Source: Methanoculleus sp.
GTDB taxonomy: Archaea > Halobacteriota > Methanomicrobia > Methanomicrobiales > Methanomicrobiaceae
Reading direction: 5' to 3'
Assembly (NCBI GenBank): GCA_011048835.1
Contig: DSDF01000022.1
Coordinates: 1 to 64,000 of the forward strand
DNA: 64,000 nt
Shown here in pieces: positions 21,185 through 60,286 of the stretch. The notes beneath the pieces are model-generated. The model had not been told where the DNA came from. It ran no database searches and saw only the letters and a program-made list of their open reading frames with translations. The stretch's first letter is position 1; each line of letters begins with the position of its first letter. A program made the translations under genes and the position numbers.

Positions 21185-21350
21185 TGTTGTATCATGTAGG
21201 GTGGAGCAGTTCATAGCAATAAAGATTGATATGTGAAGCGAACCGTGAGCACACCCCTCGAGCCCCACCCGTACATCTGCTGCCGAACGACGGTAAAAAG
21301 ATAAATGTATATCGTATTTTATTCAAAAATACCTGTGAATATACGTTTTT

Positions 21351-21370
21351 GCAGTGGAAATCAAGGGGTC
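21351..21370 (+). repeat. Origin recognition box-like motif, copy 1
   Basis: Reads GCAGTGGAAATCAAGGGGTC. The core GTGGAAA and the G-string GGGGT match the archaeal ORB consensus recognised by Orc1/Cdc6; the left half of the dyad (TCCA) is degenerate. Confidence 0.6.
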
Positions 21371-21623
21371 ATGGCGCTCCTGCACATCGCGACGACATGT
21401 GTCAGGTACCCCCGATCGCCGCGCATATTCGCAGCATGAGAAAAACCTATTGAAATTTTAAGATTATGCATATTTTATACCTTTTTCGGAATCTCTGACC
21501 GGCAGGGAGTGATCGACATCCGCATTTATTGCCATCTCGAGTGCGGATTGCCGAAACGAGGTGCTGTACAGCACGGCTTTCGACGACCGTACCGATCGGT
21601 GTGCCATCACGCTTTTTCGACAT

Positions 21624-21645
21624 CTCCAGTGGAAATAAAGGGGTT
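21624..21645 (+). repeat. Origin recognition box-like motif, copy 2
   Basis: Contains CTCCAGTGGAAATAAAGGGG followed by TT. The short dyad TCCAGTGGA and the G-string are both present, a close match to the archaeal ORB. Confidence 0.75.
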
Positions 21646-21756
21646 CATCCCATCTTTTGCCTGACCGCTGCGAATACGGACATCGTCGGACGGTGGTCCC
21701 AGAATTAAAATTTATATCACCGTTTGTATTAAAAAAATGGTTGCAAAATATTCCTC

Positions 21757-22914
21757 TCAGAGCCCGGCCAGAAATGCCTCAATACGATCGAGGGCAACCC
21801 GCAGGTTGTCACGCGACACGGCATAGGCGCATCGCAGGTGGCCCCCGGCACACGCCCCGAACACCCGTCCCGGCACCACCGCGACCCCCTGCTCGGTCAG
21901 CAGGCGCTCGGCGAATTCGAGATCGGATAGACCGGTTTCCGCGACCGAGGGGAAGGCGTAAAACGCCCCCTTCGGCATGTGGCAGGGAAGGCCGATGCGG
22001 TTTAACCCGCGGACGAACATATTCCGGCGGATGCAGTACTCCCGCACCATTGCATCGCGTTCCCTGCTGCCGCGCCGGAGCGCCTCGATCGCCGCCACCT
22101 GGGCCATTACGGGAGCGCACATCATGACGTACTGGTGGATCTTCATCGCCGCGTCGCAGATTTCCTTCGGCGCGCAGAGGAACCCGATCCGCCACCCGGT
22201 CATGGCATAGGCCTTGGAAAACCCGTTCAGCGTGATGGTCCGCTCCCGCAGGTCGTCCACCGCCACCGCAGACGTCGGGGAGCCCTCATAGGTGAGCTCC
22301 GCGTAGATCTCGTCGCTGATCAGCAGCAGGTCCTGGTCCACGATGACCTCGGCGATCGCCCGGTAGTCCGCATCCCGCATCACCCCGCCCGTGGGGTTGT
22401 TGGGGAAATTGATCACCACGGCCTTGGTCTTCGGGGTGACCGCCTCCGCAAGCGCATCCGCGGTCAGCCTGAACTCGTCCTCCTCGCGGCACTGCACCGG
22501 CACCGGAATCCCGCCGGCGAGCATCACGCAGGGCGAGTGGGCCACAAACGAGGGTTCGGCGACGATCACCTCGTCCCCGGGGTCGACGACCGTCCTGATG
22601 GCAACGTCGAATGCTTCCGAGACCCCACTGGTCACCACGATCTCCGTCTCGGGGCTGTAGCGGATGGAAAAGCGGTCGTCGAGATAGCGGGCGATCTCCC
22701 GGCAGAGTGCGGGCATCCCCCGGTTGGCGGTATACGACGTCGAACCCAGCTCGATGGAATAAATCGCCGCCTCGCAGATACTCCACGGGGTGGCGAAATC
22801 GGGCTCTCCCACCCCGAGGGAGACGACATCTTCCCTGTCCTGGACCAGGTCGAAAAATTTCCTGATCCCGGAGGGGGGAATGGCCCGGGCCTGTGCTGCG
22901 ACGAAATCTCTCAT
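21757..22914 (-). CDS. PLP-dependent aminotransferase, class I/II
   Basis: A 385-residue aspartate/aromatic aminotransferase-type enzyme. VSLGVGEPDFATPW is the N-terminal substrate loop, TSYTANRGMPALCREIARY follows, VINFPNNPTGGVM holds the Asn that contacts PLP, LLISDEIYAELTY the Asp/Tyr pair, and NGFSKAYAMTGWRIGFLCAP the lysine that forms the Schiff base. The GHLRCAYAVS segment carries the conserved C-terminal Arg that binds the substrate carboxylate. Exact amino-acid specificity cannot be read from sequence. Its ATG overlaps the end of the Lrp gene by 4 bp (ATGA), so that regulator may control or sense the same amino acid. Confidence 0.92.
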   Translation of the reverse strand: MRDFVAAQARAIPPSGIRKFFDLVQDREDVVSLGVGEPDFATPWSICEAAIYSIELGSTSYTANRGMPALCREIARYLDDRFSIRYSPETEIVVTSGVSEAFDVAIRTVVDPGDEVIVAEPSFVAHSPCVMLAGGIPVPVQCREEDEFRLTADALAEAVTPKTKAVVINFPNNPTGGVMRDADYRAIAEVIVDQDLLLISDEIYAELTYEGSPTSAVAVDDLRERTITLNGFSKAYAMTGWRIGFLCAPKEICDAAMKIHQYVMMCAPVMAQVAAIEALRRGSRERDAMVREYCIRRNMFVRGLNRIGLPCHMPKGAFYAFPSVAETGLSDLEFAERLLTEQGVAVVPGRVFGACAGGHLRCAYAVSRDNLRVALDRIEAFLAGL

Positions 22915-23414
22915 GGAATCACATCAGAGTGAAATGGGAAGGCGGTCGCCTCCCCCCGCTCGAAGAACGTATGCCCGTTTTCCTTGTACGTCTTCATGAT
23001 GAGGATCGTCGCCGTTTCCCGGATATGGTCCATGGGGGCGATCTGCTCGGCCACAAACGAGGTGATCTCGTGGATGTTGCTGCCCACGACCATCACCTGG
23101 AGGTCGTAGACGCCGGAGATGAGGCGGATACTGCGCACCTGCGAAAACCGCGCGATGCGCTCGGCGATTTTGTCGTACCCGAAATCGCGTTCGGGGCTGA
23201 CCTTCAGCTCGATGATCGCCGCCACCTCGGGCTCGCCGGCCTGCTCCCAGTCCACCACGGCCCGGTATTTGCGGATCACCCCCTGCTCTTCCAGAATGCG
23301 GATGCGCGTGGCGACCTCCTCTTCGGAGAGATCGGCCATTTCAGATAGATTGCGTACCGGGATGTTGCTGTCGTCCTCGAGTATTGTGAGCAGTATGCGG
23401 TCTTTATCGTCCAT
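22911..23414 (-). CDS. Lrp/AsnC-family transcription regulator
   Basis: A 167-residue feast/famine regulator. An N-terminal HTH (MDDKDRILLTILEDDSNIPVRNLSEMADLSEEEVATRIRILEEQGVIRKYRAVVDW, about residues 1-56) is followed by the RAM ligand domain (VAAIIELKVSPERDFGYDKIAERIARFSQVRSIRLISGVYDLQVMVVG). The C-terminal tail is 20 residues longer than usual. The ATG at 23414 has GGTGAT four bases upstream; an ATG at 23420 overlapping the cdc6 stop (TGATG) is the alternative. It lies between cdc6 and the aminotransferase in one operon. Confidence 0.9.
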   Translation of the reverse strand: MDDKDRILLTILEDDSNIPVRNLSEMADLSEEEVATRIRILEEQGVIRKYRAVVDWEQAGEPEVAAIIELKVSPERDFGYDKIAERIARFSQVRSIRLISGVYDLQVMVVGSNIHEITSFVAEQIAPMDHIRETATILIMKTYKENGHTFFERGEATAFPFHSDVIP

Positions 23415-23419
23415 TAGCA

Positions 23420-24703
23420 TCACCTGAATAGCGTTTTAAATCGCGCCGTATCGATTTCGTTCAACCGTTCGTCATTGAGCCGGGTGTCCTTGAGGAGGGT
23501 GTCCCAGATCTTTTTGGTGCCGGTGCCAAATGACATCTCCTTGGTCCTGCCGTACCGGCCCCTGCTCACCACGCGCGCGTTGATCACGCCGAGCATGTTC
23601 AGCTCGGAGATGAGATCGGTGATGCGGCGGTGGGTGAGCACGTCGAGGTCCAGAATCCGTGCCACCTCGCGGTAGACCTGCGCGACCTCACCCGTCGTAA
23701 AGACATCCTTGTTGAGCTTGGTCAGGAAAAGCATCGAATAGAGAACCGCTTTGCTCTGCGTCGGGAGTGTGGAGACGCACTCGATGAGGCTGTCGGTCTC
23801 GATCCGCTGCATTGCCGCTCTCACGTTGGTCTCGGCGACCCGGTCCGTGTTCTCCCGCTCCGCAAGCTCCCCCGAGACGCGAAGAAGATCGAGCGCCCGG
23901 CGCGCGTCCCCGTGCTCCTGCGCGGCGAGGGCTGCACAGAGGGGGATGACCCCGTCATCCAGCGCTCCAGCGACAAACGCCACGTCGGCCCTCTGCTGGA
24001 GAATGTCCACGAGCTGCATCGCGTTGTATGGCGGAAAGACGATCTCCTCTTCCGAGAGCGAGGAGAGCACGCGCGGGTCGAGGAAATCGGTGAACCGGAG
24101 ATCGTTGGAGATCCCGATGATGCTCACCTTCGAATCCTTCAGGTCGGAGTTGATGCGGGTAAGGTTGTAGAGCGTCTCGTCGCCGCTCTTTTTCACCAGC
24201 TTGTCGATCTCGTCGAGGACAATGACATGCACCCCGCCCATCGCCTCCATCTGGTTCTTGAGCTCGGCGTACACCTGGTCGGTGGGCCACCCGGTCATGG
24301 GGATGCTGGTCCTGGGGCGATCGCTCGCACGGGCATCGGAATCATCCAGGTAGTTGGCGATCTGGGCGAGCACCCGGTACTGGGTATCGATCACCTCGCA
24401 GTTGAGGTGGATGACATGGCAGGCAGTACCCATTTCACTGCTGGCATTCTCCAGTTCTCGTCCCACGTACCGCACACAGGCGGTCTTTCCAGTCCCCGTT
24501 TTCCCGTAGATAAGAATATTGGAGGGCGTCTCATCCCGGAGAGACGATGCGAGGATCGAGGCGATGGAATCGATCTGGGGCTTTCTGTGGGGGAGCACGT
24601 TCGGGCAGTAGGAATGCCGGAGCACTTCCCGGTTTTTGAATATGCTTGTATTATGGAGGAACTTTTTAAACAATCCCATTGAGGGGCTTTCTTCATCGGA
24701 CAT
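23420..24703 (-). CDS. cdc6: Origin recognition protein Orc1/Cdc6
   Basis: Binds origin recognition boxes and loads the MCM helicase at archaeal replication origins. The 427 residues show an AAA+ ATPase: ILIYGKTGTGKTACVRYVG (Walker A), VHVIVLDEIDKLVKKSGDETLYNL (Walker B and lid), IIGISNDLRFTDFLDPRVLSSLSEEEIVFPPYNA (sensor 1 and the initiator-specific Arg region, about residues 205-238), and HGDARRALDLLRVSGELAE (sensor 2). The C-terminal 90 residues (HRRITDLISELNMLGVINARVVSRGRYGRTKEMSFG) form the winged helix that contacts the ORB. The ATG at 24703 starts MSDEESPSMGLF. ORB-like boxes lie immediately upstream, the normal layout of an archaeal origin. Confidence 0.96.
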   Translation of the reverse strand: MSDEESPSMGLFKKFLHNTSIFKNREVLRHSYCPNVLPHRKPQIDSIASILASSLRDETPSNILIYGKTGTGKTACVRYVGRELENASSEMGTACHVIHLNCEVIDTQYRVLAQIANYLDDSDARASDRPRTSIPMTGWPTDQVYAELKNQMEAMGGVHVIVLDEIDKLVKKSGDETLYNLTRINSDLKDSKVSIIGISNDLRFTDFLDPRVLSSLSEEEIVFPPYNAMQLVDILQQRADVAFVAGALDDGVIPLCAALAAQEHGDARRALDLLRVSGELAERENTDRVAETNVRAAMQRIETDSLIECVSTLPTQSKAVLYSMLFLTKLNKDVFTTGEVAQVYREVARILDLDVLTHRRITDLISELNMLGVINARVVSRGRYGRTKEMSFGTGTKKIWDTLLKDTRLNDERLNEIDTARFKTLFR

Positions 24704-24780
24704 ATCTACTCCAGAGCGCACGGGGAAAGCACAGTACCACCAATGCACGATCCAGTATATGTGATCATCTGAATCCTATT

Positions 24781-24802
24781 AACCCCTTTGTTTCCAGTGG
24801 AG
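24781..24802 (-). repeat. Origin recognition box-like motif, copy 3
   Basis: On the minus strand: CTCCACTGGAAACAAAGGGG followed by TT. This is the best match in the window, with an intact TCCACTGGA dyad and GGGG string. Confidence 0.85.
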
Positions 24803-24900
24803 CCGGCCCGGGCATACAAAACCCTGCTTCCTCGATAGCCACAGGATTTGAAGCACTCACCGGGGAATTGTCGACGCTCCCGGAGGAGGGTTGAAGGCCC

Positions 24901-24921
24901 ACCCCATGATTTCAAGTGGAG
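24901..24921 (-). repeat. Origin recognition box-like motif, copy 4
   Basis: On the minus strand: CTCCACTTGAAATCATGGGG then T. One change in the dyad (ACTTGAA for ACTGGAA) but the G-string is kept. Confidence 0.65.
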
Positions 24922-25105
24922 AGCTATGATGAGAAGACCTTCTTCTCATCAATATCAAAATAGGAGAAGACTCATTGATCAATCTCTCGTTCATGGTACT
25001 TAAGGTATCCGAATCGCGATCCGATCCCGCGGAAAAGCTTCCGGCAGGAGGAAGTCCCGAGTGCGGATTTGTGGCATGAGGAGAGGCGGCCGTGCACTCG
25101 ACTGG

Positions 25106-25126
25106 CTCCACTGGAAATGAAAGGGT
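25106..25126 (+). repeat. Origin recognition box-like motif, copy 5
   Basis: On the plus strand: CTCCACTGGAAATGAAAGGG then T. The dyad is intact and it faces copies 3 and 4 across the AT-rich centre. Confidence 0.75.
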
Positions 25127-25197
25127 CTCCCATCTCCTGGTCAACAACTTCCCACACCGACCACTATCCTCATCAGATCTCCCGTCAATGAGGATGC

Positions 25198-25686
25198 ATG
25201 GATCCGAGCCATATCAGGGATATTCCCCTCGCCGTTTCAGTCATCACGGTCTCCACGAGCCGGGATACATCCACCGACAGGAGTGGTCCGGTAGTCAGGG
25301 ATCTTCTCTCCTCCGCGTCCATCCCGGTGGTGCGGTCCCGCATCGTTCCCGACGATATCGAGGAGATCCGGCGCGAGCTCTTTGCTTCACTCGAGGTTGC
25401 CAACTGCGTGATCTTTTCGGGGGGGACGGGCCTCACCTCCGATGACTGCACCATCGAGGCCATCGAGCCCCTCCTCGAAAAAACCATGCCGGGGTTCGGT
25501 GAACTCTTTCGATCGCTCAGCGTCCGGGATATCGGGACCCGCGCGCTGCTCTCCCGCGCCCTCGGGGGGGTGACCCGGGGCAAAGCGGTCTTCTGTATCC
25601 CGGGGTCGACCGGGGCCGCGGACCTTGCGGTCCGGGAACTGATCATCCCGCAGCTCGCACACGTACTGACCCACGCGTCGCAGTAG
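25198..25686 (+). CDS. moaB: Molybdenum cofactor biosynthesis protein MoaB/MogA-type
   Basis: A 162-residue molybdopterin-binding-fold protein that adenylates molybdopterin before metal insertion; methanogens need it for formylmethanofuran dehydrogenase (tungsten or molybdenum). Motifs are VSVITVSTSRDTSTDRSGPVV at the N-terminus, IVPDDIEEIRREL, VIFSGGTGLTSDDCTIEAI (the conserved GGTG-T-DDxT loop) and GKAVFCIPGSTGAADLAV. GAGG lies five bases before the ATG. It is the first plus-strand gene to the right of the probable origin. Confidence 0.95.
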   Translation: MDPSHIRDIPLAVSVITVSTSRDTSTDRSGPVVRDLLSSASIPVVRSRIVPDDIEEIRRELFASLEVANCVIFSGGTGLTSDDCTIEAIEPLLEKTMPGFGELFRSLSVRDIGTRALLSRALGGVTRGKAVFCIPGSTGAADLAVRELIIPQLAHVLTHASQ

Positions 25687-25691
25687 AGGGG

Positions 25692-26204
25692 TCAGCGGTA
25701 GACATCGAGGAGGGCGACCCGCTCCCGGACCAGTTCGGGAAGGCGGTCCTTCCCGACGATCGCCAATTCCTCGCGTGGTATCCCGAAAAGATCCATCAGG
25801 CGACGTTTTTTTGCATCGTCAATCTCTTCCCAGTCTTCCTCGACGAAACAGACGAGGGCACGGAGGGCGTCGCGTGCGCCGGGCGAAGGCGGGCAGATGC
25901 AGACGTACCCCGCGTTGGCACCGCAATGAATGCCGAACCGCACAGCGTCCAGCACCTGCCTGCTTCCCGCGGCATAGAGCAGGGATTCCATTTCAAATGA
26001 ATTTGCAATCGGGCTTTCTCCAAAAAAGGAACGCTGTGCATGATCGAGGGCGGCGGCGACGTGAGCGCTTCCGGCCATATGCGCGGCATTGAACACAACG
26101 ATCCGCACCCCGAAGCGGTCGGCGATCTCCCGTAGATGTGCGAGGAAATCAGCTTCGTCATCCACCGAAAACCGGGCCTGTGCGATATCGCAGTCCACCT
26201 TCAT
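25692..26204 (-). CDS. cgi121: KEOPS complex subunit Cgi121
   Basis: A 170-residue protein of the Cgi121/TPRKB family. KEOPS makes t6A in tRNAs that read ANN codons; Cgi121 binds tRNA and helps Bud32. The family's key segment is seen as ANSFEMESLLYAAGSRQVLDAVRFGIHCGA (about residues 66-95), with the AHMAGSAHVAAALDHAQRSFF helix before it. The C-terminal part (LMDLFGIPREELAIVGKDRLPELVRERVALLDVY) also fits. It overlaps the end of hel308 by 4 bp, so it is translated from the same mRNA. Other KEOPS genes are not in the window. Confidence 0.85.
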   Translation of the reverse strand: MKVDCDIAQARFSVDDEADFLAHLREIADRFGVRIVVFNAAHMAGSAHVAAALDHAQRSFFGESPIANSFEMESLLYAAGSRQVLDAVRFGIHCGANAGYVCICPPSPGARDALRALVCFVEEDWEEIDDAKKRRLMDLFGIPREELAIVGKDRLPELVRERVALLDVYR

Positions 26205-28357
26205 CGCTGTTCCCCGAAAAAGGACAGGGTCTTCTGCCCAACATCCTCGTCGTCATCATCCCCGCCCCCCCCGTCCGGCCGGTCGAGCTGCGCGAAGATC
26301 GATTCCGCGGTCTTCTGGCCCAGGATCGTGCTGATGCGCTCCATGCCGGCAGCGCGCAGCGCCTCGGGGGAGGTGACGTTGTTGTTGAAGAGCCGGCGGG
26401 CGCGCACCCGCCCGATCCCCCGCAGGCGGATGAGCGGCAACAGCTCGCGCTTGATCCCGTGCTTGACCCGCAGCTCGGTCTCCCTGATGGGACCGGCACA
26501 TGCCGGCGCTGCCATGCCGGCAATCCTGCCCGCGGCGTGGATCAGCCACCCGATGCCCTCGACCGTATTGTAGATGTCCCCGGGACCTACGTTGTAGCGC
26601 TCGCAGAGTGCGGCTTCGCCGACCTCGCCCATCCAGTCGGCGATGAGCATCGCCGTCTTGAGGCTGCGGAAGTAGCCCTCGCCGTCGTCCCACGAAAATT
26701 CCACCCAGAGGTCGTCTTCATGGGCGTCGACGAACTGCTCCACGACGGTCAGGTCCTGTTTTCGCACGTAGAGGGTGTACATGTCGGGGGTGGCGCACAG
26801 CAGCTGGAGCAGGCCAATTTCGGACCAGCGCTCGTGGGACCGCAAGGCGTCGCTGATCATCTCCGCCCCGCGGGGGTCGATGTAGAGGCGGGAGACAAGG
26901 GTGCCGTAGGACGTTGCGTGCAGCAGCCCGCCCACATCGGTGATCATCTCGGCGCCGTGGAGGAACGCGGTTACGGATTCGACGATCCTCGAGAGATGGC
27001 GGCTGTTCTTTTTCTGGTGCACGTAGAATGTCTTTTCCAGAAACCCGATCAGGTCTTCGCTCGACGAGACGAACCCGGTGGCGATCAGGGAGAGGATGTG
27101 GGTGGTGAGCGCCGATTCCGAGGCGCACTTCGAGTGGATCCCCTCCGCCGGCGCCTCGATATAGGCGGCGAACAGGTCGTCGACCGCCCCGCGTTCCTTT
27201 GCGATGAGCACCGCTTCGCCGTAGGGGTCAAGGTGGGGCCTTCCTGCGCGGCCCGCCATCTGCCGGTACTCTCGCACCGGGATGGGCCGCATGCCCTCGC
27301 CGCCCTGGAAGCGGAGATAGTCGCGCACCACCACCCGTCGGGCGGGGAGGTTGAGGCCTGCTGCCAGGGTGGGCGTGGAGGAGATCACCTTGATCCGGTT
27401 CTCCCGGAATCCCCGCTCCACGATATGGCGCTGCTTTTTCGAGAGGCCGGCATGGTGGAACGCCGCCCCTTTCGCCACGCAGGCGGCGAGCACCGTGCCC
27501 ATGTCCGTTTCGGCCGCCGCCTCGAGCTCTCGGCCCAGCGCAGCGAGCACCGGGTCGTCAATGGTCAACGCCGATGCCGCGCGTTTGGCAAACCCCTCAG
27601 CGTTCTTGCGGGAGCTGACGAAGACGAGGCACTGTCCCCCTTCGGCGATGGTGTCCAGGCAGAGGTTGATGTCCTCGTACCTGGAGGGGGTGGCGATCGC
27701 TTTTTCGCCGTCGGCGAAGTGCACGGTGCCCCGGTAGCAGACCCCCTCGCGCAGGTCGACGGGGCGCCATTCCGAGGTGATCAATTCCGCATCCAGCCAG
27801 GCGGCGAGCTCTTCGGGGTTGCCGATGGTGGCGGAGAGGGCGACTGTCTGCATGGCGGGGTTGAGGGTGCGCAGTTTGATGATTACCATCTCAAGGGTCG
27901 CCCCGCGGTCCTCGGAATCGATCAGGTGCACCTCGTCGACCACGAGCAGGGAGATCTCCCGCAGCCAGTGCGTGGCATTGCGCAGCAGGGAATCCACCTT
28001 TTCGCTGGTGGCGATGATGATGTCGTTGCGTCCCAGGTACTCGTCCCGCCGGTCGTAGTCGCCGGTGGCGATCCCCACCGACGCCTGCTTTCCATTAAAA
28101 TCATCGTATTTTTCGCTGGCGAGCGCTTTCAGGGGGACGATGTAGAGGCACCGTCCCCCGCCGGCGATATGGTGGTGCATGGCCATTTCGGCGATGAGGG
28201 TCTTTCCGCTCGCGGTGGGGATGGCGATAAGAAGGTTGGCACCCGAAAAAAGCCCCGCCCCGATGCACTCCTCCTGCGGGGGGTAGAGTTCGGTGATCCC
28301 CCGTTCGCTGTACTGCTGCACCAGGTGGCCCGGTACCGGCAATGACTCGATTTTCAT
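26201..28357 (-). CDS. hel308: Hel308 Ski2-like DNA helicase with C-terminal PIP-box
   Basis: A 3'-5' helicase of 718 residues that unwinds lagging-strand forks. Motifs are YPPQEECIGAGLF (Q motif), IAIPTASGKTLIAEMAM (Walker A), LLVVDEVHLIDSEDRG (DExH), ALSATIGNPEELAAWL (motif III), SSTPTLAAGLNLPARRV and YRQMAGRAGRPHLDPYGEA (motif VI). A winged-helix and ratchet follow, then the helix-hairpin-helix LLPLIRLRGIGRVRARRLFNNN. The very end, QKTLSFFGEQR, has the QxxLxxFF form of a PCNA-interacting peptide. The ATG at 28357 starts MKIESLPVP. It is co-transcribed with cgi121. Confidence 0.95.
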   Translation of the reverse strand: MKIESLPVPGHLVQQYSERGITELYPPQEECIGAGLFSGANLLIAIPTASGKTLIAEMAMHHHIAGGGRCLYIVPLKALASEKYDDFNGKQASVGIATGDYDRRDEYLGRNDIIIATSEKVDSLLRNATHWLREISLLVVDEVHLIDSEDRGATLEMVIIKLRTLNPAMQTVALSATIGNPEELAAWLDAELITSEWRPVDLREGVCYRGTVHFADGEKAIATPSRYEDINLCLDTIAEGGQCLVFVSSRKNAEGFAKRAASALTIDDPVLAALGRELEAAAETDMGTVLAACVAKGAAFHHAGLSKKQRHIVERGFRENRIKVISSTPTLAAGLNLPARRVVVRDYLRFQGGEGMRPIPVREYRQMAGRAGRPHLDPYGEAVLIAKERGAVDDLFAAYIEAPAEGIHSKCASESALTTHILSLIATGFVSSSEDLIGFLEKTFYVHQKKNSRHLSRIVESVTAFLHGAEMITDVGGLLHATSYGTLVSRLYIDPRGAEMISDALRSHERWSEIGLLQLLCATPDMYTLYVRKQDLTVVEQFVDAHEDDLWVEFSWDDGEGYFRSLKTAMLIADWMGEVGEAALCERYNVGPGDIYNTVEGIGWLIHAAGRIAGMAAPACAGPIRETELRVKHGIKRELLPLIRLRGIGRVRARRLFNNNVTSPEALRAAGMERISTILGQKTAESIFAQLDRPDGGGGDDDDEDVGQKTLSFFGEQR

Positions 28358-28503
28358 CCAAAACCCTTTAATTCCACTGCACAATGCGGTTTCATCGCGC
28401 GCATTTGAAAACAGCGCTTACAGATCCGTTTCGCCGTCCAGTTGCAACGTTCCCTTTGCCGGAATGCTGTTATGCGGGATTATCCCGCTTTTTGCACCGG
28501 CAG

Positions 28504-31115: not shown

Positions 31116-31292
31116 TTATTTTTTTCTCCCGAGGAAATAATACGCAATTGCGCCGAGAATGCCAAAGACCAAGGCAACGACGATCCAGATAATTTTCCAT
31201 CCTGTGGTAAGCCCTTTGTTCTGGGTGAGAACATCATAAATCACCCAGATAACAGATACCAACACCAGTAATCCCCAAATCATCTCAAGCAT
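31116..31292 (-). CDS. Small membrane protein, PLDc_N-like
   Basis: A 58-residue protein with two membrane helices (WGLLVLVSVIWVIYDVLTQ and IIWIVVALVFGILGAIAYYFLG) joined by a short Lys/Thr loop, ending in RKK. This layout is that of the phospholipase-D-nuclease N-terminal (PLDc_N) family, small proteins often found alone and without known function. I chose the ATG at 31292 (MLEMIWG) with GAGG nine bases upstream; a TTG seven codons earlier is less likely. Confidence 0.75.
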   Translation of the reverse strand: MLEMIWGLLVLVSVIWVIYDVLTQNKGLTTGWKIIWIVVALVFGILGAIAYYFLGRKK

Positions 31293-31607
31293 AAGCGGAT
31301 GCCTCAATAGCAATAAACGTAGTTTGCATATATTAAATTATCCAGGGATATGGTAATTTTACCAATAATTTAAGGTCTATCTTCACGTTAGGGGGAGGAT
31401 TCGGGACTCATGCAGTCTGTTTCCTTCTGGCGCATACAATCCCTGGATCGTTCCTTGCAATCTGCGAACCATACCTGGTAAAATCACGTCCGATCCAGAG
31501 ACTGGCCTCTTTTTACCGCCTTTTCGGATAAAAGAATGATCGTGGTCCGGAGACTGAAGCGGATGATTCGATCCGCCTTCAGACAGGACTTCCTGAGATG
31601 AACAATC
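31293..31607. other. Intergenic region, no gene seen
   Basis: About 315 bp. The left part is AT-rich (around 31320-31380, with TATTAAATTATCCAGG and TAATTTTACCAATAATTTAA) and probably holds the promoter of the small membrane protein. I see no open frame with a ribosome site. Confidence 0.4.
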
Positions 31608-59742: not shown

Positions 59743-60286
59743 GGGTCTCCTTCCGGGCAAATCGTGCCGGCGGGGGCACGGGGAGTTTCATAAAGGTACT
59801 GTCGAGCGATCCGAAAAAGGTTCCATCCGCCCTCCGGCGGACAGGTCCCCCGCACGCCGTTCCGTGCGTGGCGGCACATCTCCCGCCAGATGGGCCCCGG
59901 CGCATTCCACCGCCCCGGGAGTCGTGTGGCAGAGCGGTATGGGAAAGCCCCGTATGCAGTTTCGTGGTGCGGCAAACCCGCCGGAACCGGAAAAATATAC
60001 CTTTCGGTAATAATTTTAATGCAAAATTACTGATAATAAATGCACACCAGTGATAATTTTAAACCGGCAAAATTCCTCCTCTTTTAAATAAATATGCGTA
60101 AATTACTCTTAAAATAGATTTTTATAAAATATTTACTGTTTTTCGATAGCGCCTGCTGAAAATGCCATAAAACGCCTTAAATCCGGCAAAAACACCATCT
60201 GGGGTATTATTAACCAGAAAATATTGTATCCTCGCTTTAAAAAAAAGGAATAGTAATTATACTACCGGCAGCGAATAATTCACGTA
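59743..60286. other. Intergenic region, very AT-rich 3' half, imperfect repeats
   Basis: About 545 bp. From about 59990 to 60286 the DNA is strongly AT-rich against a GC-rich background. An imperfect direct repeat AATAATTTTAATGCAAAATTA (60009-60029) / GATAATTTTAA-ACCGGCAAAATT (60052-60074) is present. This is probably the promoter and leader of the transporter gene. No frame is convincing. Confidence 0.5.

Follow-up and report, generated by a model that had tools for sequence, protein, structure and literature searches.

The interval between an orc1/cdc6 gene and a divergent moaB/mog-like gene in a Methanomicrobiaceae-related methanogen is very probably a chromosomal replication origin of the oriC1 (Orc1-1) type. 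The interval occupies positions 24704–25197 of the window, i.e., the whole 64,000-nucleotide stretch analysed, and separates orc1/cdc6 on the minus strand from the moaB/mog-like gene (25198–25686) on the plus strand. It contains three initiator boxes (ORBs), two facing orc1 and one inverted (Table 1). A preliminary description had proposed a probable chromosomal origin at this place, and the motif, the order-wide layout, the initiator class, and the turn-over of the GC skew all support the proposal.

Table 1. Features of the locus and of the remote pair (window positions unless a contig is named; mismatches are counted against the published ORB motif).
Feature	Sequence	Position	Strand	Remarks
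ORB, proximal box	TCCACTGGAAACAAAGGGGT	24782–24801	-	0 mismatches; counterpart in 77/79 related loci
ORB, second box	TCCACTTGAAATCATGGGGT	24901–24920	-	1 mismatch; counterpart in 73/78 loci
ORB, distal inverted box	TCCACTGGAAATGAAAGGGT	25107–25126	+	1 mismatch; counterpart in 59/62 loci
Probable duplex-unwinding stretch		24922–25000		37% GC; unwinding predicted
orc1/cdc6, Orc1-1 type initiator		23423–24703	-	NF001625, 596.5 bits (cut-off 501)
Aminotransferase and Lrp/AsnC-type regulator genes		21757–23423	-	collinear with orc1; between two ORB groups
ORB	TGCAGTGGAAATCAAGGGGT	21350–21369	+	purA–aminotransferase gap; 2 mismatches
ORB	TCCAGTGGAAATAAAGGGGT	21625–21644	+	purA–aminotransferase gap; 0 mismatches
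hel308-type DNA helicase gene		26201–28357	-	NF002654, 1025 bits (cut-off 887); ATG at 28357
Weak ORB	TGCAGTGGAATTAAAGGGTT	28362–28381	-	3 mismatches; centre 14 nt upstream of the hel308 ATG
Tandem ORB pair, contig C24		3058–3077 and 3128–3147		70 bp apart; downstream of acdA

The boxes were scored against the ORB motif TCCA[GC]T[GT]GAAA[CT][AG]A[AT]GGGGT, which was published for Methanomicrobia with Ori-Finder 2 (PMC4164010, Table 1) and is independent of the window. All three core boxes were recovered where they had previously been placed and on the strands given for them, with 0, 1, and 1 mismatches; as a set they were incomplete, the boxes at 21350, 21625, and 28362 having been overlooked. 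At up to three mismatches, the window contains six sites, against a mean of 0.11 in dinucleotide shuffles of the window, in which six sites were never reached. The number of ORBs, each a dyad followed by a G-string, is thus above chance expectation. The whole assembly (1.99 Mb in 139 contigs, 96% complete) contains exactly eight sites at the same threshold: six within 7 kb at the orc1 locus and the tandem pair on contig C24. A reversed control pattern of the motif gave 0 sites in the 1.99-Mb assembly. Since six of the eight sites are here and the other two on C24, no other part of the assembly has a richer ORB cluster, a point that the preliminary description had singled out for checking.

Judged from its sequence, the adjacent initiator belongs to the Orc1-1 class, by which oriC1 of Sulfolobus is defined (PMC12141716). 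Among solved structures, S. solfataricus Cdc6-1 (2qby_A, E 3.7e-105) is the nearest to it, and the A. pernix protein 2v1u (2v1u_A) comes next; the initiator carries the Walker A sequence GKTGTGKT and the Walker B sequence VIVLDE. The gene indeed starts at the left edge of the interval, as had been claimed, the likely start codon on the minus strand being the ATG at 24703; the first base of the 24782 box lies about 79 bp 5' of this ATG. The gene order orc1-lrp-aminotransferase is kept in related loci. An Rfam scan of 23–32 kb returned no match at the gathering threshold, and a search of PLSDB with the core sequence returned no plasmid relative. The other three orc1/cdc6 homologs of the genome (contigs C61, C43, and C39) are diverged: their Walker B ends in LDDAN rather than in LDE. 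The one on C43 adjoins an mch-like gene.

The preliminary description placed the opposed boxes around an AT-rich stretch. The inversion holds, and 24782–24804 and 25104–25126 form an 87% inverted repeat; the AT-richness is limited to 24922–25000, the interval 24922–25106 having 50.8% GC. The 24901 box directly abuts this AT-rich part, the candidate unwinding element. The least stable 60-mer of the core (24924–24983) ranks among the lowest 0.4% of the window for duplex stability, and a perfect palindrome, TGATGAGAAGA-CCT-TCTTCTCATCA, lies within the AT-rich stretch at 24927–24951; it is largely kept in the genus, with a conserved core. Among 62 related loci having both boxes, the AT-richest 60-mer lies no more than 60 bp from the second box in 40. 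A search of the inter-ORB interval for a common second motif gave mainly A/T runs, and we claim no ucm-like element other than the genus-level palindrome. Two 100-bp stretches, 60049–60148 and 31291–31390, are the least stable of the window and lie away from any ORB.

One feature counts against initiation in the core: a less stable 60-mer is found in the gap between purA and the aminotransferase gene (66.9 vs. 71.4 for the core). The gap (21269–21756) was therefore retained as a rival initiation site, in which forks would start while the orc1-proximal boxes would be regulatory, and it has two ORBs, one of them perfect. Yet the two boxes point in the same direction and flank no interval in inverted orientation, and the comparison across the order also speaks against the gap, so that we regard initiation there as quite unlikely. 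For this comparison, 80 related loci labelled Methanomicrobiales or unplaced Euryarchaeota were scanned, and each box was located by its distance from the orc1 start. Family sites formed part of the training set of the weight matrix behind the locus counts, and chance expectations were for this reason taken from the published motif. Duplicates among the loci (G003 = L018, G002 = L047, and G005 = L019) are taken into account by distinct-locus counts where relevant.

Across these Methanomicrobiales loci, the boxes around orc1 have kept their positions and orientations. A proximal box 88–150 bp upstream of orc1 and oriented toward it is present in 77 of 79 loci, a second box at 150–400 bp in 73 of 78, and the inverted distal box in 59 of 62, whereas boxes 2.95–3.6 kb downstream of the orc1 start, past lrp and the aminotransferase gene, occur in 30 of 71. 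The loci with downstream boxes are mostly labelled Methanoculleus, Methanomicrobiaceae, or near them. The body of orc1 has no box in the 80 loci, and of the 337 boxes in 1.22 Mb of loci, all but three fall within the expected zones and the hel308 zone. The orc1-proximal layout is thus near-universal in the order.

The preliminary description had also named a skew inflection as a feature to check. Along the contig of 86,330 bp, the cumulative GC skew declines as far as position 26706, its minimum, and then rises; an equally deep valley arose in 0–2 of 300 block shuffles of this contig, in which gene-strand effects persist. Because the chromosome of the window is in 139 contigs, whole-chromosome skew was examined in relatives alone, by sampling twenty 20-kb stretches from each of three single-contig assemblies (G009, G006, and G057). 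In G009, nine of ten stretches on the right replichore are positive and nine of ten on the left negative (Fisher p 0.0011), and the best-fitting origin, 1120–1200 kb, includes the ORBs at 1194–1198 kb. In G006, the means are +0.047 and -0.036 (Mann–Whitney p 0.006), with a best-fitting origin at 2140–2240 kb and ORBs at 2187–2200 kb. In these two genomes, the sign of the sampled skew switches at the cluster orthologous to the present one and again close to the antipode; for G057, no clear skew signal was obtained. In G003, a member of the same genus, the skew minimum of 200 kb lies at 88.5 kb, beside the cluster, and is of borderline depth (10 of 200 shuffles). The inflection is accordingly present in the contig and in two of the three relatives sampled.

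These data bear on the view that the boxes are purely transcriptional, Orc1 repressing orc1 itself along with nearby genes such as hel308, with replication starting elsewhere. Boxes do lie directly upstream of both orc1 and hel308, and a promoter/terminator scan found a TATA-like stretch after the 24782 box, the consensus of the scan being bacterial. Against this, the cluster coincides with a turn-over of the skew both on this contig and in two relatives, and no other ORB cluster of such size is present in the assembly. This view is the least probable of those considered, and we think it very improbable.

The boxes outside the core look like control sites around an ordinary initiator-box origin. 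Throughout the family, the 21625 box keeps a position of about +3050 relative to the orc1 start, and the genus alignment has 24 invariant columns at this box. A box at hel308, in the same orientation and about 40 nt or less from the start, is found in 36 of 52 rows, i.e., 34 of 49 distinct loci, and the hel308 boxes of many relatives match the motif better than the 28362 box. The likeliest role of the downstream, hel308, and remote boxes would be initiator titration or regulation; the literature searched yielded no description of hel308-leader, downstream, or remote boxes of this kind. The downstream boxes have a parallel in oriC2D, an ORB cluster downstream of cdc6 at the oriC2 origin of Haloarcula hispanica; oriC2D is a repressor of that origin, probably acting by titration (PMC3936714). 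Both systems have a second ORB group downstream of cdc6, opposite the origin side, but the initiator and the origin differ, the Lrp and aminotransferase genes intervene here, and the group has 2 boxes compared with 11 in Haloarcula (PMC3936714). Because of this low number, the locus was not classed as an oriC2D-like titration region.

The tandem pair on contig C24 occupies the gap that follows acdA (ADP-forming acyl-CoA synthetase type), a gene convergent with a PPDK-like one. A pair after acdA with the same 70-bp spacing is kept in all three genus members examined, including G002 and G003; that of G002 is without the PPDK-like neighbour. The acdA frame on C24 ends early (2800–2870) beside a run of G, and since homologs continue, the break looks like an assembly error or a frameshift.

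Given this conserved pair and the four orc1/cdc6 homologs of the genome, more than one origin may be active, the C24 pair or the loci of the other three homologs also firing. Such additional origins would be compatible with an origin at the orc1 locus; we consider them unlikely. The orthologous pair region in G003 (contig C11) has no skew minimum, the contig stretches around the three paralogs have no ORB, although these paralogs could use other box types, and one origin fits the sampled skew of G009 and G006.

A solitary box, TCCAGTGGAAATCAAGGGGT, is present in ten Methanoculleus-like genomes; where a single contig carries both, it is about 540–630 kb away from the origin. It follows a SET-domain-like gene (L170:9380–9399, with equivalents in L171–L177, L180, and L181). 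The noncoding DNA around it has an overall identity of about 70%, and within it about 25 bp at the box form an invariant island; this conservation implies that the box is under selection. An identity with the acdA locus was rejected, as acdA, PPDK, and the flanking proteins are unmatched there. In G005, which belongs to a different genus of the family, an ORB pair 50 bp apart on its contig C24 (L102:9011–9080) lies downstream of a cdc6-type paralog and an mch-like gene. G003 and G002 have in common a single strong ORB near a radical-SAM gene (L105:7025–7044 and L106:6766–6785); the genome of the window has the radical-SAM gene (C43:7491–8777) without an ORB there.

In E. coli, datA is an initiator titration locus. 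The remote boxes on C24 and in related genomes resemble it in being conserved initiator boxes far from the origin; they differ in comprising one or two boxes only and in that titration is a proposed role for them. The resemblance is one of analogy, not homology. It is conceivable, and we suggest it tentatively, that Methanomicrobiales have, beyond the core, a small network of Orc1-1 boxes maintained by selection, which titrates the initiator in a datA-like manner and/or couples hel308 expression to initiation. The network would comprise the pair downstream of the orc1 operon, the hel308-start box, and lineage-specific remote boxes, i.e., the post-acdA pair and the Methanoculleus-like solitary box.

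For the core itself, the closest models are Sulfolobus oriC1 and Pyrococcus oriC. The features in common are an origin beside orc1/cdc6, an Orc1-1 class initiator, multiple ORBs (a TCCA-N-TGGA dyad with a G-string) inverted around an interval with an AT-rich stretch, and a single skew inflection, here a base-composition extreme at the cluster. The present locus differs in its inter-ORB interval of about 185 bp, AT-rich in part only, in its three box groups across 7 kb, and in being a predicted origin known from sequence. It has the same ORB motif and the same gene-neighbourhood logic as the Methanomicrobia origins predicted in DoriC and by Ori-Finder 2 (PMC4164010). In Sulfolobus, ORB2 and ORB3 flank the DUE and both are required for origin activity (PMC12141716). 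By analogy, Orc1-1 from the adjacent gene would bind the inverted ORBs at 24782, 24901, and 25107 and open the AT-rich stretch 24922–25000 beside the 24901 box; MCM would then be loaded between the inverted boxes (24901 and 25107), and two forks would depart in opposite directions. The 24782 box beside the orc1 start probably lets Orc1 regulate its own transcription, and the satellite boxes (21350, 21625, 28362, and the C24 pair) would most likely hold Orc1 off the core or regulate neighbouring genes. In T. kodakarensis, an ORB-bearing, cdc6-adjacent origin can be dispensable (PMC5663688), and this was counted against the origin assignment.

Collectively, these observations give the placement of the chromosomal origin in an uncultured methanogen lineage a firm comparative basis, and the genome-wide list of initiator boxes is unusually clean (eight in about 2 Mb). 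The origin itself is ordinary, and the conserved satellite boxes are its less ordinary part. Control of archaeal initiation by initiator titration or by initiator-regulated repair genes, of which the literature searched provided one haloarchaeal example, is made testable by the conserved boxes outside the core.
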